Source of the DNA: Ornithinibacillus bavariensis
GTDB taxonomy: Bacteria; Bacillota; Bacilli; Bacillales; Amphibacillaceae
NCBI RefSeq assembly: GCF_018333235.1
Contig: NZ_BORP01000002.1
Coordinates: 496,001 to 560,000 of the forward strand
DNA length: 64,000 bases
Direction of reading: 5' to 3'
Under the pieces are notes generated by a model. It saw only the letters and a list, made by a program, of their open reading frames with translations, was not told the DNA's origin and did no database searches. Positions 22-3,280 of this stretch are shown here, one piece after another. Within the stretch, counting starts at the first letter, position 1. Each line of letters opens with the position of its first letter. The translations under genes were made by a program, and so were the position numbers.

Positions 22-1047
22 CTAGAGCCAAATAAAAACGAGAAGTGCAACCGTTAGAGGAGGACCAATCAGGTAAAGAATACTATACAGTCGTACGACT
101 AGGCTTTCACCTGAAAAGATTTCGGTATTTTCTTTTTGTTTAAGAAACGGAAACCATTTGCTTAAGTAATCTTTACTATTTTCCATGAGGCTATAGCAAC
201 TAGTCATATTTTCGAAAACATAGTATAAATCTGTTTTCATATAAATACAGCATTGGTAAACCGTTTTTATACAAATATCAAAGATGATAATTGTAAGTAT
301 ACTAGTCCAAAAGGTACCGCTTCCATTTAAGAAGATAGAGAGTAGTAAGGTGGTGCTTAAAATCACTTGTTCAAATGCCATACCACCTAGATAAAGTGTA
401 TTTCGTTTACGAGGTGGTAATTTCCAAGCGGAAGTTAAGTCTGTTTCCAGGACAATAAAAATTAGTCTATGTCCCACAGATAGTTTTGTTGGTAAATCGT
501 AAGAACGGATTGCTAAAATATGGCCAAGTTCGTGTATCATAAGAAGTAAAAAGGATATGGCCGCATAAATAAGGACACTAAGAACAATAGAATCAACTAA
601 AAAGATATCACGATAATGTGGAATAAATTCTGGATGAAAGATAATTAATGTAATATTCATGATGAAAAAAGCGAAATACAGTATAGTCGATATCTTATTA
701 AAAAAAAGTTTTCCAAGCTTGGGTGAAATCCACTGCATCCCTTTTATTGAAGGTGCTTTCTTCACAACCGAAGTAGCTTGTCCATCTACTGTTTTAACTA
801 GTCCAAATTCCATTAATTGATAGGCAAAATCAATAACTTCCACTTCTTCAGAAGAATATACTTGTAATAATTGATACTCCACCTCGCTAAGCTTTTTTCC
901 TTGGTTGATTAGCTCGATTGCATCAATGCAAATCTGTGGCATCTCAAAAAACTCTCCAGTAGCTTCATCTTCAATAATGAAGTTCTTTTTATCTGGGTGT
1001 ATTTTTAGTGGATATAAAGTAAGCTTAGACTCTGCATTTAGTTTCAT
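22..1047 (-). CDS. PqqD-domain/M50-like membrane zinc metalloprotease (peptide maturation type)
   Basis: Probable intramembrane metalloprotease that processes or exports a small peptide. The first ~80 residues resemble a PqqD/RRE fold (FEMPQICIDAIELI, then a helix ending LMEFGLVKTVDG), the domain that binds leader peptides in RiPP systems. Several membrane segments follow. One carries HELGH, the M50 zinc motif, then a basic loop (PPRKRNTLYLGG) in place of a canonical DG third-ligand motif, as in peptide-processing M50 relatives. I chose the ATG at 1047; an in-frame GTG at 1062 is also possible, and neither has a strong RBS, which suggests coupling to the 22-codon gene just upstream. The ORF ends at TAG 22-24. 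Partners such as a radical SAM enzyme or ABC transporter may lie beyond the left edge. The family is fairly sure; the substrate is inferred. Confidence 0.75.
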   Translation of the reverse strand: MKLNAESKLTLYPLKIHPDKKNFIIEDEATGEFFEMPQICIDAIELINQGKKLSEVEYQLLQVYSSEEVEVIDFAYQLMEFGLVKTVDGQATSVVKKAPSIKGMQWISPKLGKLFFNKISTILYFAFFIMNITLIIFHPEFIPHYRDIFLVDSIVLSVLIYAAISFLLLMIHELGHILAIRSYDLPTKLSVGHRLIFIVLETDLTSAWKLPPRKRNTLYLGGMAFEQVILSTTLLLSIFLNGSGTFWTSILTIIIFDICIKTVYQCCIYMKTDLYYVFENMTSCYSLMENSKDYLSKWFPFLKQKENTEIFSGESLVVRLYSILYLIGPPLTVALLVFIWL

Positions 1048-1089
1048 GATTGGCACCACCACTTCTCTCTATGTTCATAGAATGCTAGA

Positions 1090-1158
1090 TTAGTTTAGTG
1101 GGAAAAAGATGCACCACCAGCAAGTTGCTTTAACTTTTTTTAGCTTACGGACTTTCAT
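1090..1158 (-). CDS. 22-residue CWWC peptide, candidate RiPP or signalling peptide precursor
   Basis: A very short ORF with an excellent ribosome binding site: AGGAGGTG ends 7 nt before the ATG. The product starts with a strongly basic stretch (MKVRKLKKVKAT) and ends with CWWCIFFPLN and a TAA stop. Two Cys flanking two Trp, followed by an Ile-Phe-Phe-Pro tail, looks like a modified core peptide. It lies 42 nt upstream of, and on the same strand as, the PqqD-domain/M50-like protease, the arrangement expected of a precursor and its maturation enzyme. I recognise no family. A membrane-active micropeptide is the main alternative. Confidence 0.6.
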   Translation of the reverse strand: MKVRKLKKVKATCWWCIFFPLN

Positions 1159-1249
1159 TTTTATACACCTCCTTTCAAATTTCCTATAGAAAAAGGAAAG
1201 CGAATGCCTTCCCACTTTTTTAATGCATTTCCCCTTTGGAAATGCGAAG

Positions 1250-2425
1250 TTATTTTGTTTGCTCATGGTGTTGTTTATAATGTATTTCTTCCCAAGTGGG
1301 ATATACTTGGATAAATATGTCGACTAGTTCAGGATCAAATTGAGTACCTTTTCCTTCTAAAATACGATTATACGCTACTTCATTTGTAAGTGCATCTCGA
1401 TATGCCCTTGATGAGGTCATAGCATCAAAAGCATCTGCTATGGATGTAATTCTAGCAAGAAAAGGGATTTCTTTTTCCTTTAATCCATTTGGATAGCCTT
1501 TCCCATCCCAGCGTTCATGATGGTGTAAGATCACACCGAGGTTATTCGAGATTTCAACCACATCCTCTACAGCCTTAGCGCCAATCACGGGATGTTGTTT
1601 TATTAAATCAAATTCTTCTTTTGTAAGCTTCCCTGGCTTTGTTAGAATGGCATCTGGAATACGAATTTTTCCAACATCATGTAATAGGCAAGCAAAATAA
1701 TAGTATCGAAGTTCTTCTTTATTTAAGCTGCCAGTAGCTTTTGCTAGAGAAAGTGCATATTCTGCCACCCGTTCACTATGCCCACGAGTGTATGGGTCCT
1801 TCATTTCAAGCGTTTGAATTATTGCTTTCACTATACCTTCTAGTCGGTTATCATATTCTTGTTTTACTGCCTCTAAATAACTCATAAAACGATGAAGAAT
1901 GATATAAGAGATTATAGATAAGATAATAACAATTAACAATGGAAGGATTACAATAGAATCCCGGATCACACTACCGATAATTATGTATTTTAATAGGACT
2001 CCACCAGAAACTAAGTAAAAATAAGTTTTGTTAACAAAAATAGGACAAAACAAAACCATTACAATTTCTACTAGATTTCCACTGCTATATGGAACATCCT
2101 TACCTTCATAAACCCAAATATCTCTTGCTATATTCAGAACGATATAGCATATAAAGTAAATATACTTAATCGATTTGGGATTATTTGTTTTTATTAGATA
2201 GAAAGAAAATGGTAATAGTGCAATCATGATAATATATAATACATAATCAAATGGTTTTGTAATAATCATCATTGGAGCATTCCATGGCGTGTTTGGAAGT
2301 AAAAAATTATAAAATATATCATAAACAAAGAATACAATATAAAATAGCCATAAAAACCAAATTGTTGCTCGCTTCTCTTCTTGAATTAATGAAAGATGAA
2401 GTGATTGTTTCATCATTATCTTCAT
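1250..2425 (-). CDS. Membrane-bound HD-GYP domain phosphodiesterase (probable c-di-GMP hydrolase)
   Basis: Residues ~20-185 form about six hydrophobic segments of no recognised sensor family. The C-terminal half is a complete HD-GYP domain: HSERVAEYAL, the metal-binding HD in LLHDVGKIRIPDAIL, KQHPVIGA, HHHERWDGKGYPNG with the GYP signature, and ADAFDAMTSSRAYRDAL. HD-GYP proteins of this form hydrolyse c-di-GMP to pGpG or GMP, so it would oppose the GGDEF protein at 15859. The ATG at 2425 has only a weak upstream AGG. ATGs 9 and 12 nt further in sit behind AGGAATGAAG and may be the true start. It is monocistronic; the 51-bp repeat array lies upstream of its promoter region. Confidence 0.85.
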   Translation of the reverse strand: MKIMMKQSLHLSLIQEEKRATIWFLWLFYIVFFVYDIFYNFLLPNTPWNAPMMIITKPFDYVLYIIMIALLPFSFYLIKTNNPKSIKYIYFICYIVLNIARDIWVYEGKDVPYSSGNLVEIVMVLFCPIFVNKTYFYLVSGGVLLKYIIIGSVIRDSIVILPLLIVIILSIISYIILHRFMSYLEAVKQEYDNRLEGIVKAIIQTLEMKDPYTRGHSERVAEYALSLAKATGSLNKEELRYYYFACLLHDVGKIRIPDAILTKPGKLTKEEFDLIKQHPVIGAKAVEDVVEISNNLGVILHHHERWDGKGYPNGLKEKEIPFLARITSIADAFDAMTSSRAYRDALTNEVAYNRILEGKGTQFDPELVDIFIQVYPTWEEIHYKQHHEQTK

Positions 2426-2716: not shown

Positions 2717-3280
2717 GGTAGGTAATGCCTGTTTTGGCTACCGTTTCCCGTGGTTGTCTCGAATTTCGGTAACCAATAGTCGTTTTGCAGCCCCGTTTCT
2801 TATGGTTGTCCCGAAATTTGGTAACCAATAGTTATTTTGCAATCCGTTTTTCATGGTTGCCCCGAAATTTGGTAACCAATAGCAGCTTTGCAGCCCGTTT
2901 TTCATGGTTGTCTCGAATTTTGGTAACCAATAGCAGCTTTGCAACCCGTTTTTCATGACTGCCCCGAATTTTGGTAACCAATAGCAGTTTTACAACCCGT
3001 TTTTCATGACTGCCCCGAATTTTGGTAACCAATAGCAGTTTTACAACCCGTTTTTCATGACTGGCCCGAAATTCGGTAACCAATAGCAGCTTAGCAACCC
3101 GTTTTTCATGACTGCTCCGAATTTCGGTAACCAATAGTCGTTATACCTACCGTATCCCATAACCACACCCAAATTTCGGTAGCTAATATCTGTCTTACCT
3201 ACTATTCCCTATGGCTGTACTGATTTTTGGTAGTCGGTTGCTTTCTTTCCTACTATACAAGTGGGTTGGCGGTGATTGTA
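2717..3280. repeat. 51-bp tandem repeat array (minisatellite), about 10-11 units
   Basis: The core GGTAACCAATAG or a variant recurs at 2768, 2820, 2871, 2922, 2973, 3024, 3075 and 3126, with degenerate copies at 2717, 3178 and 3229. Spacing is 51 bp, twice 52. A unit runs GGTAACCAATAGCAG, TTTGCAACCCG, TTTTTCATGACTGC, CCCGAATTTT. Central units are almost identical and outer units decay on both sides. As 51 = 17 x 3, two minus-strand frames stay open and give 17-residue repeats (frame A with YWLPNFG, frame B with LLLVTK). The 52-bp units break the frame and no RBS is visible, so coding is unlikely. It lies between the HD-GYP gene and mtlA. Confidence 0.9.

Follow-up and report, generated by a model that had tools for sequence, protein, structure and literature searches.

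In the ComQXPA and AgrBDCA pheromone systems, a small precursor, a membrane enzyme that processes it and a membrane receptor, which is a histidine kinase, are encoded in one operon, and the precursor is conserved in one part and variable in another. Leader-guided maturation is known from natural products, the ribosomally synthesized and post-translationally modified peptides (RiPPs). Its proteins include TbiB1, WgkC and PqqD, which belong to the leader-binding RiPP recognition element (RRE)/PqqD group, and the intramembrane metalloprotease of daptides (NCBIfam model NF041824). The epipeptide system YydF/YydG/YydH (EpeX) of Bacillus subtilis combines a short ribosomal peptide with YydH, a membrane-bound protease that is thought to cleave the peptide and to release or export it (PMC7026026). 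Here we describe a three-gene unit in a stretch of 64,000 nt from Ornithinibacillus bavariensis (contig NZ_BORP01000002.1, positions 496,001 to 560,000), called the window below. The unit codes for a micropeptide with a Cys-Trp-Trp-Cys (CWWC) motif, an M50-like membrane metalloprotease and a predicted HD-GYP phosphodiesterase of cyclic di-GMP (c-di-GMP).

The first-pass annotation of the window, made from the sequence alone, had reported a 22-codon open reading frame (ORF) with an AGGAGG ribosome-binding site (RBS), coding for a basic leader and CWWC, next to a membrane metalloprotease with an HELGH motif. Both genes were found as described; the peptide is MKVRKLKKVKATCWWCIFFPLN and the protease ORF lies directly downstream. 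A third gene, absent from that annotation, lies directly upstream of the peptide and codes for a MASE12-HD-GYP protein. All three are on the minus strand, transcribed in the order MASE12-HD-GYP, peptide, protease (Table 1). With the MASE12-HD-GYP partner, the likely function shifts from a natural product to signalling. The earlier reading is thus partly supported, and the observation is larger than first described.

Related loci were collected by searching genome contigs with a profile of the protease alignment. We kept the best 80 of 101 relatives (L040 to L119), with up to 8 kb on each side. They include Oceanobacillus, Ornithinibacillus, Paucisalibacillus, Virgibacillus, Gracilibacillus, Aquibacillus and Lentibacillus, as well as Sporosarcina, Solibacillus, Ureibacillus, Neobacillus, Mesobacillus, Alkalihalobacterium and others. 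The peptide was present in all 80 loci. In 78 it lay within about 500 nt upstream of the protease gene, and in L053 and L089 it lay further upstream, directly after an HD-GYP gene and parted from the protease gene by inserted DNA. An HD-GYP homolog was likewise found in 80/80 loci. The protease and the HD-GYP protein were the only gene families common to all of them, the next commonest occurring in 44. These data show that the peptide, the RRE-type protease (its fold being predicted) and the HD-GYP enzyme form a conserved three-gene unit in many Bacillus-like bacteria. By eye, the insert in L089 (6070-7980) resembles a group II intron reverse transcriptase and that in L053 (7320-8000) a repeat-like element.

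A search of 159 genomes of the family with the protease gave matches in 39, namely 36 full-length loci, one remnant (G022) and two weak matches (G139 and G091). Of the 36 full-length loci, 35 had the peptide immediately before the protease; the 36th (L022) corresponds in place to L053, in which the peptide is further upstream. In L009 a TAA within the protease match precedes the likely start, and a later profile search reported no stop there. The remnant (L038, G022:C52) is decayed, with several stops, and a short CWWC-like fragment adjoins the broken protease fragment. Several records are shared between the 80 loci and the family genomes, so these sets are dependent. Alignments were made of 33 of the 36 full-length family proteins (A1, without L009, L017 and L019), 36 peptides (A2, the window and 35 of the 78), 67 of 81 proteases (A3), 44 of 81 HD-GYP proteins (A4) and 45 of 78 intergenic regions (A5).

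The protease profile matched 61 of 397 sampled genomes of the order. The match was strong (E <= 1e-115) in 43, came from a distant group only (E about 1e-55 to 1e-76) in 16 and was weak in two (G181 and G357); two genomes carried an extra distant copy. With the peptide profile, 43 genomes scored E <= 1.4e-8 and none of the others better than 0.009; at E <= 1, 120 genomes matched. The strong protease set and the strong peptide set were the identical 43 genomes, and the peptide match ended 49-161 nt before the protease match. MASE12 (PF20971) matched 54 of the 397 genomes, 52 of them over the cut-off, and none of 14 control genomes. Of the 43 genomes with the peptide, 42 had it close by, at 647-734 nt from the match to the peptide profile. 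In the exception (G221) the peptide is only 693 bases from the contig start. Per genome, at most 4 protease, 22 peptide and 8 MASE12 candidates were scored, and further copies may have been missed. In a phylum sample, 3 of 398 genomes matched the protease profile (the O. bavariensis genome itself, G241 of the same order and, weakly, G560), and 28 of 72,556 plasmid records held homologs, all distant (<60% identity; ten listed at 25-28%). In one contig (L202, G414:C11) an HD-GYP gene is flanked by Neobacillus-like neighbours while the peptide and protease genes are both missing, as if lost together.

The peptide has the leader consensus MKIRKLKKxKxT, in which L6 and T12 were identical in 78/78 sequences. 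The CWWC motif varied in seven (CWVC and CWIC twice each, CWLC, CFWC and CYWC once each). The tails following it were 3-10 residues long, 71 of the 78 being distinct, and near neutral with a mean net charge of +0.7. We compared codons 2-16 pairwise in the 70 peptides that have the motif in a fixed position (69 loci and the window). There were 11254 synonymous and 5188 non-synonymous codon differences, and the differences at codon positions 1, 2 and 3 numbered 4814, 2086 and 14395; the pairs share history and are therefore dependent. Judged from this third-position bias, the peptide is translated. That the peptide is real and conserved far above chance is confirmed at the sequence level, because its profile matches 43 of the 397 order genomes, exactly those with a strong protease homolog. 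The first-pass annotation had placed it in no known family. Of 36 peptides submitted to the family libraries, the 34 long enough to scan gave no NCBIfam match and two single weak Pfam matches (0.022 and 0.17), and no family in either library fits it. With the unit comes a conserved gene family of a kind that often escapes default gene callers.

The intergenic region between peptide and protease contains a hairpin, GG[AG]TG[CT]...GCATCC, in 72 of the 78 loci, followed by a U-rich stretch. The T fraction in the 10 nt after the hairpin was 0.70, compared with 0.35 in intergenic DNA, and the hairpin energies averaged 5.7 standard deviations below mononucleotide shuffles. Elsewhere in the 1.29 Mb of these loci the pattern had 7 matches, one of which is the displaced copy in L089. 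An Rfam scan of 4 of the 80 loci gave no match to the hairpin at gathering score, which rules out an Rfam element as its identity there. The hairpin is probably a leaky terminator that sets the level of the peptide above that of the protease. Two Trp codons followed by a hairpin with a U-rich tail are also what would be expected of an attenuator leader peptide, in which tandem Trp (or Cys) codons and a terminator control transcription of the protease gene. However, selection acts across the amino acids of codons 2-16, and 7/78 peptides have F, Y, V, I or L in place of one Trp. A 7-base upstream complement of the left arm, which could serve as antiterminator, was found in 0/72 loci, a weak point as only 0.9 would be expected by chance. 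The downstream product, moreover, has a predicted peptide-binding fold. On codon conservation, Trp replacement and the antiterminator scan we rejected the attenuator, which is very improbable.

The N-terminus of the protease had been taken for a PqqD-like leader-binding domain. The likeness can be seen in the predicted fold of a relative and is weak by sequence. Among the 33 family proteins, Pfam M50 was matched by 30 and PqqD by 6 (best E 0.0017), and the NCBIfam models matched were the daptide metalloprotease NF041824 (23/33, best 5.1e-10), WgkC (8/33) and YydH/LiaK NF058609 (4/33, best 4.4e-6). The window protease itself stayed under the cut-off for both models it matched, with 17.0 bits for PF02163 (M50; gathering cut-off 27.2) and 15.4 bits for NF041824 (cut-off 300). 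It matched neither PF05402 (PqqD) nor NF058609, and a PF05402 search of its own genome was negative as well. We modelled the protease of L040 from the 67-sequence alignment (mean predicted local distance difference test (pLDDT) 86.7, predicted template-modelling score (pTM) 0.80). The model shows strands and three helices at residues 9-87, with long helices after them. Its four best matches in the PDB by Foldseek were all the leader-bound RRE protein TbiB1 (probability 0.99-1.00, target TM-score 0.65-0.69, E 0.26-0.72). Lower down came several RiPP enzymes (TigE, a sactipeptide maturase, McbBCD, ThcOx and SkfB) as well as RseP, which ranked 29th with a probability of 0.60. A sequence search for a relative of solved structure gave a best E of 1.7, and a search of phage families with two proteins gave no match.

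From these data the protease N-terminus is predicted to fold as an RRE. In TbiB1, WgkC and PqqD the likeness lies in this fold; here the predicted RRE is fused to a membrane protease, and the leader, about 12 residues long, is basic. The first 90 residues of the protease have a mean net charge of -10 (80 proteins) versus +5.6 for the leader (78 peptides), opposite charges that would fit electrostatic leader binding by the RRE. HExGH and MKTD are invariant in the 67 homologs, HExGH within a predicted helix at residues 154-181. We infer that the Asp of MKTD is a zinc ligand and that HExGH lies in the membrane.

The third protein of the window matched Pfam MASE12 at 4.4e-48 and HD_5 at 1.4e-37. 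HD, H278 and HHERWDGxGYP were invariant in 44 homologs. In its model (pLDDT 90.4, pTM 0.76) six helices precede the HD domain and the sixth continues into it; the best PDB matches were the HD-GYP domains 4r8z (4e-11) and 4mcw (5e-11). With intact HD and GYP motifs and metal ligands, the protein is assigned from its sequence as an HD-GYP c-di-GMP phosphodiesterase. The 80 loci hold 130 copies of the homolog, 128 on the protease strand; 41 loci have one copy, 28 have two and 11 have three. From the HD-GYP stop to the peptide start the median distance was -1 nt (range -29 to 69, 78 loci). In 40 of the 78 loci the peptide gene begins within the end of the HD-GYP gene, with an overlap of 4 nt in 17, which suggests translational coupling of the two genes. 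HD-GYP and protease distances correlated with a Spearman coefficient of 0.66 (77 loci), consistent with shared inheritance.

Such close coupling of the peptide and HD-GYP genes could also mean that the peptide is retained at or within the membrane, where it would serve the MASE12-HD-GYP protein as a small regulatory subunit or, through CWWC, as a redox- or metal-sensing part. The protease would then remove the peptide, and c-di-GMP hydrolysis would be set by regulated proteolysis, which M50 proteases generally carry out within membranes. A constant CWWC, a hydrophobic tail and the lack of an exporter family common to the 80 loci agree with this. However, the tail is hypervariable, whereas an interaction surface within one complex should be conserved, and the RRE resembles domains that guide maturation, not degradation. 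We consider this explanation somewhat unlikely.

We favour a leader-guided peptide signalling module coupled to c-di-GMP, with a probability of about 0.5. The strongest argument for it is the neighbourhood, in which only a peptide processor and a sensor enzyme are constant, together with the scarcity of MASE12 elsewhere in these genomes. The peptide gene follows, and often overlaps, the MASE12-HD-GYP gene, and the two are probably transcribed as one mRNA. The hairpin after the peptide gene, as a partial terminator, would yield more peptide than protease. The acidic RRE of the protease, in its predicted fold, would bind the basic leader, and the M50-like active site would cut the peptide at or in the membrane and release a short hydrophobic peptide consisting of CWWC and the tail. 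The same role has been proposed for YydH (PMC7026026). The co-occurrence of the genes suggests that MASE12 of the neighbouring HD-GYP protein would sense the released peptide, the cell's own or that of its neighbours, and tune c-di-GMP hydrolysis. Specificity would come from the hypervariable tail, as it does from the variable parts of other peptide pheromones.

Like ComQXPA and AgrBDCA, the signalling module would unite in one operon a small precursor, an enzyme that processes it at the membrane and a membrane-bound receptor, and its precursor is likewise divided into a conserved and a variable part. It would differ in its receptor, a c-di-GMP phosphodiesterase and not a histidine kinase, and in its processing enzyme, an RRE-M50 protease. 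We know of no described system in which a peptide signal has a c-di-GMP phosphodiesterase as dedicated receptor. It may tentatively be proposed, at less than even odds, that the RRE-guided intramembrane protease matures the CWWC micropeptide without another linked modification enzyme, that the phosphodiesterase is the dedicated receptor and that MASE12 here mainly reads the peptide. MASE12 would thereby gain a candidate role as a sensor domain, and leader-guided peptide maturation would be linked to a bacterial second messenger. If true, this would be a compact peptide-to-c-di-GMP circuit and would give a route to the inputs of HD-GYP enzymes in Bacillus relatives. Literature searches on CWWC, MASE12, RRE-M50, RiPP/c-di-GMP, daptides, epipeptides and HD-GYP pheromones showed no description of the unit among the matches listed, subscription papers and preprints being outside their scope. 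Among the papers searched, strings of the peptide sequence occurred in a single one, whose title and abstract deal with powdery mildew effectors and retrotransposons.

Several observations weigh against the signalling module. Foldseek gave no PDB match to the L040 model at E <= 0.001, and scattered among the RRE matches were unrelated membrane and helical proteins with probabilities under 0.1. A peptide lies within 12 kb of 65 of the 78 MASE12 places over the cut-off and is missing from that range at the other 13; MASE12 occurs without the peptide in 10 of the 52 genomes over the cut-off, these counts being lower bounds with at most 8 candidates scored per genome. In nine of those ten genomes, which we inspected, the stretch around the MASE12 gene contained no CWxC peptide. 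Tail distance correlated with the catalytic domain given the sensor at 0.141 and with the sensor given the catalytic domain at 0.136 (77 of the 78 loci; L087, with a cut HD-GYP gene, was left out), so the co-variation of the tail with the sensor is not specific relative to the catalytic domain. Being so hydrophobic and having two Cys, the peptide may remain in the membrane. In the window copy the protease is shortened and the hairpin lost. Leader binding, cleavage, export or release, and sensing are all four inferred.

The locus had been read as a RiPP locus cut by the left edge of the window. The protease stop codon lies at 22-24, inside the window, and completes the ORF; the further start at 17-15 (minus), taken as a hint of more genes, opens only six codons before a stop. 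To the left of the window, nine ORFs within 12 kb were compared with Pfam. An SBP_bac_5 solute-binding protein and two permeases are encoded at a distance of 9-12 kb; the other ORFs code for a GDPD protein, a second binding-protein-dependent ATP-binding cassette (ABC) importer, a HAD hydrolase and an antiterminator of the GlpP type (glycerol-3-phosphate responsive). SBP_bac_5-type importers are usually for peptide import. No radical S-adenosylmethionine (SAM) enzyme, oxidoreductase, exporter or epimerase was among the nine, which, with the stop codon and the six-codon ORF, rules out a locus that continues leftwards. Nor was any maturase, modification enzyme, exporter or transporter, immunity or epimerase family common to the 80 loci. 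On these two scans we rejected a full RiPP cluster with a radical SAM enzyme or exporter.

What stands of the RiPP reading is the conserved micropeptide, with a leader-like part in 80/80 loci, beside a protease of predicted leader-binding type; a linked chemical modification enzyme was sought and not found, either in the 80 loci or in the left flank, and for this reason we do not file the unit as a RiPP. An unlinked enzyme elsewhere in the genome is possible. The unit would nonetheless work like leader-guided peptide maturation. The epipeptide system differs in the same respect, as neither a radical SAM epimerase nor a YydIJ-like transporter is a constant neighbour here and the HD-GYP partner is; the CWWC peptide is not known to be related to YydF. 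For daptides, no gene stood out among the conserved neighbours of the 80 loci, no model search having been aimed at the other daptide genes.

The weak family similarity of the protease to YydH/LiaK and to the daptide protease, together with a cationic leader, a hydrophobic core and a variable tail, would be compatible with a peptide that acts as an antimicrobial or in cannibalism and is matured by a YydH-like protease, the HD-GYP enzyme regulating its production or a stress response. The lack of a common modification, transporter or immunity family, the nearly neutral tail and a signalling enzyme as the constant partner speak against this, and we regard it as improbable.

In the window, the peptide and the HD-GYP gene read as intact. 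The protease ORF runs either over 22-1062 from a GTG or over 22-1047 from an ATG that follows GGTGGTG, the ATG being likelier. It lacks about 50 C-terminal residues, including the near-invariant PQ and FWD positions and the last helix, and the DNA past its stop does not encode the missing end. The conserved hairpin pattern has no match in the window, its left arm being lost. A terminator-like hairpin lies before the peptide (a consensus scan found 4 in 3600 bases, with 1.9 expected in shuffles). From its sequence, the unit may be decaying in this genome; an assembly error is a possible source of the short protease.

Table 1. Features of the three-gene unit and its surroundings in the window.
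Feature	Position	Strand	Details and evidence
MASE12-HD-GYP protein	1250..2425	-	Sensor domain residues 15-178, phosphodiesterase domain residues 201-367; Pfam, model, homologs
Terminator-like hairpin between HD-GYP gene and peptide, window copy	1194..1213	-	Consensus scan
RBS of peptide, AGGAGG	1168..1173	-	
CWWC micropeptide, 22 codons and stop	1090..1158	-	Homologs in 80/80 loci; third-position bias
Basic leader-like stretch, codons 1-12, conserved	1123..1158	-	Mean net charge +5.6 (range 3-6, n=78)
CWWC motif, codons 13-16	1111..1122	-	Exact in 71/78
Hydrophobic tail IFFPLN, codons 17-22, hypervariable	1093..1110	-	71 distinct tails among 78
Right-arm remnant of conserved intercistronic hairpin, left arm missing	1077..1088	-	
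RRE-fused M50-like membrane metalloprotease, C-terminally short	22..1047	-	341 aa versus 374-401 in 80 relatives
Predicted RRE/PqqD-like N-terminal domain, residues 1-90	778..1047	-	Predicted fold of relative L040, TbiB1 matches, charge
HELGH zinc motif, residues 172-176	520..534	-	H, E, G and H invariant (33 and 67 homologs)
MKTD, residues 270-273	229..240	-	Invariant in 33 and in 67 homologs; D273 putative third zinc ligand

Absence of the peptide beside homologous proteases would have counted against the first-pass reading. Close homologs of the protease keep the peptide beside them; the distant protease group does not. In its 18 loci (L150-L167) no CWWC or precursor peptide was found in the upstream stretch searched, and 17 had no HD-GYP homolog, L166 having a remote one. 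On its upstream side the protease gene adjoins, in 18/18 loci, a gene for about 380 aa that is homologous among them and lies on the same strand in 17. Its example in L160 (L160:4737-7076) matches ThiF/E1 models and, weakly, a leader-binding model of thiazole/oxazole-modified microcins (TOMM). The distant PqqD/M50-like protease and the ThiF-like gene are possibly another two-gene peptide modification pair.

Neobacillus and its relatives (e.g. L069, L083 and L097) share a conserved gene run 1.3-8 kb downstream of the protease, with families found in 27-31 of the 80 loci. Named by eye, it begins with a molybdopterin oxidoreductase (after the protease in 29/80 loci, within this group), an iron-sulfur protein and a Rieske-like twin-arginine translocation (Tat) protein, followed by a kinase, a response regulator and a GAF protein, which resemble NreABC. 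In the window, a tandem array at 2760-3137 (51-base unit, 7.4 copies, 89% matches) separates the HD-GYP gene from the gene of a transporter that by eye resembles a mannitol component of the phosphotransferase system (PTS).
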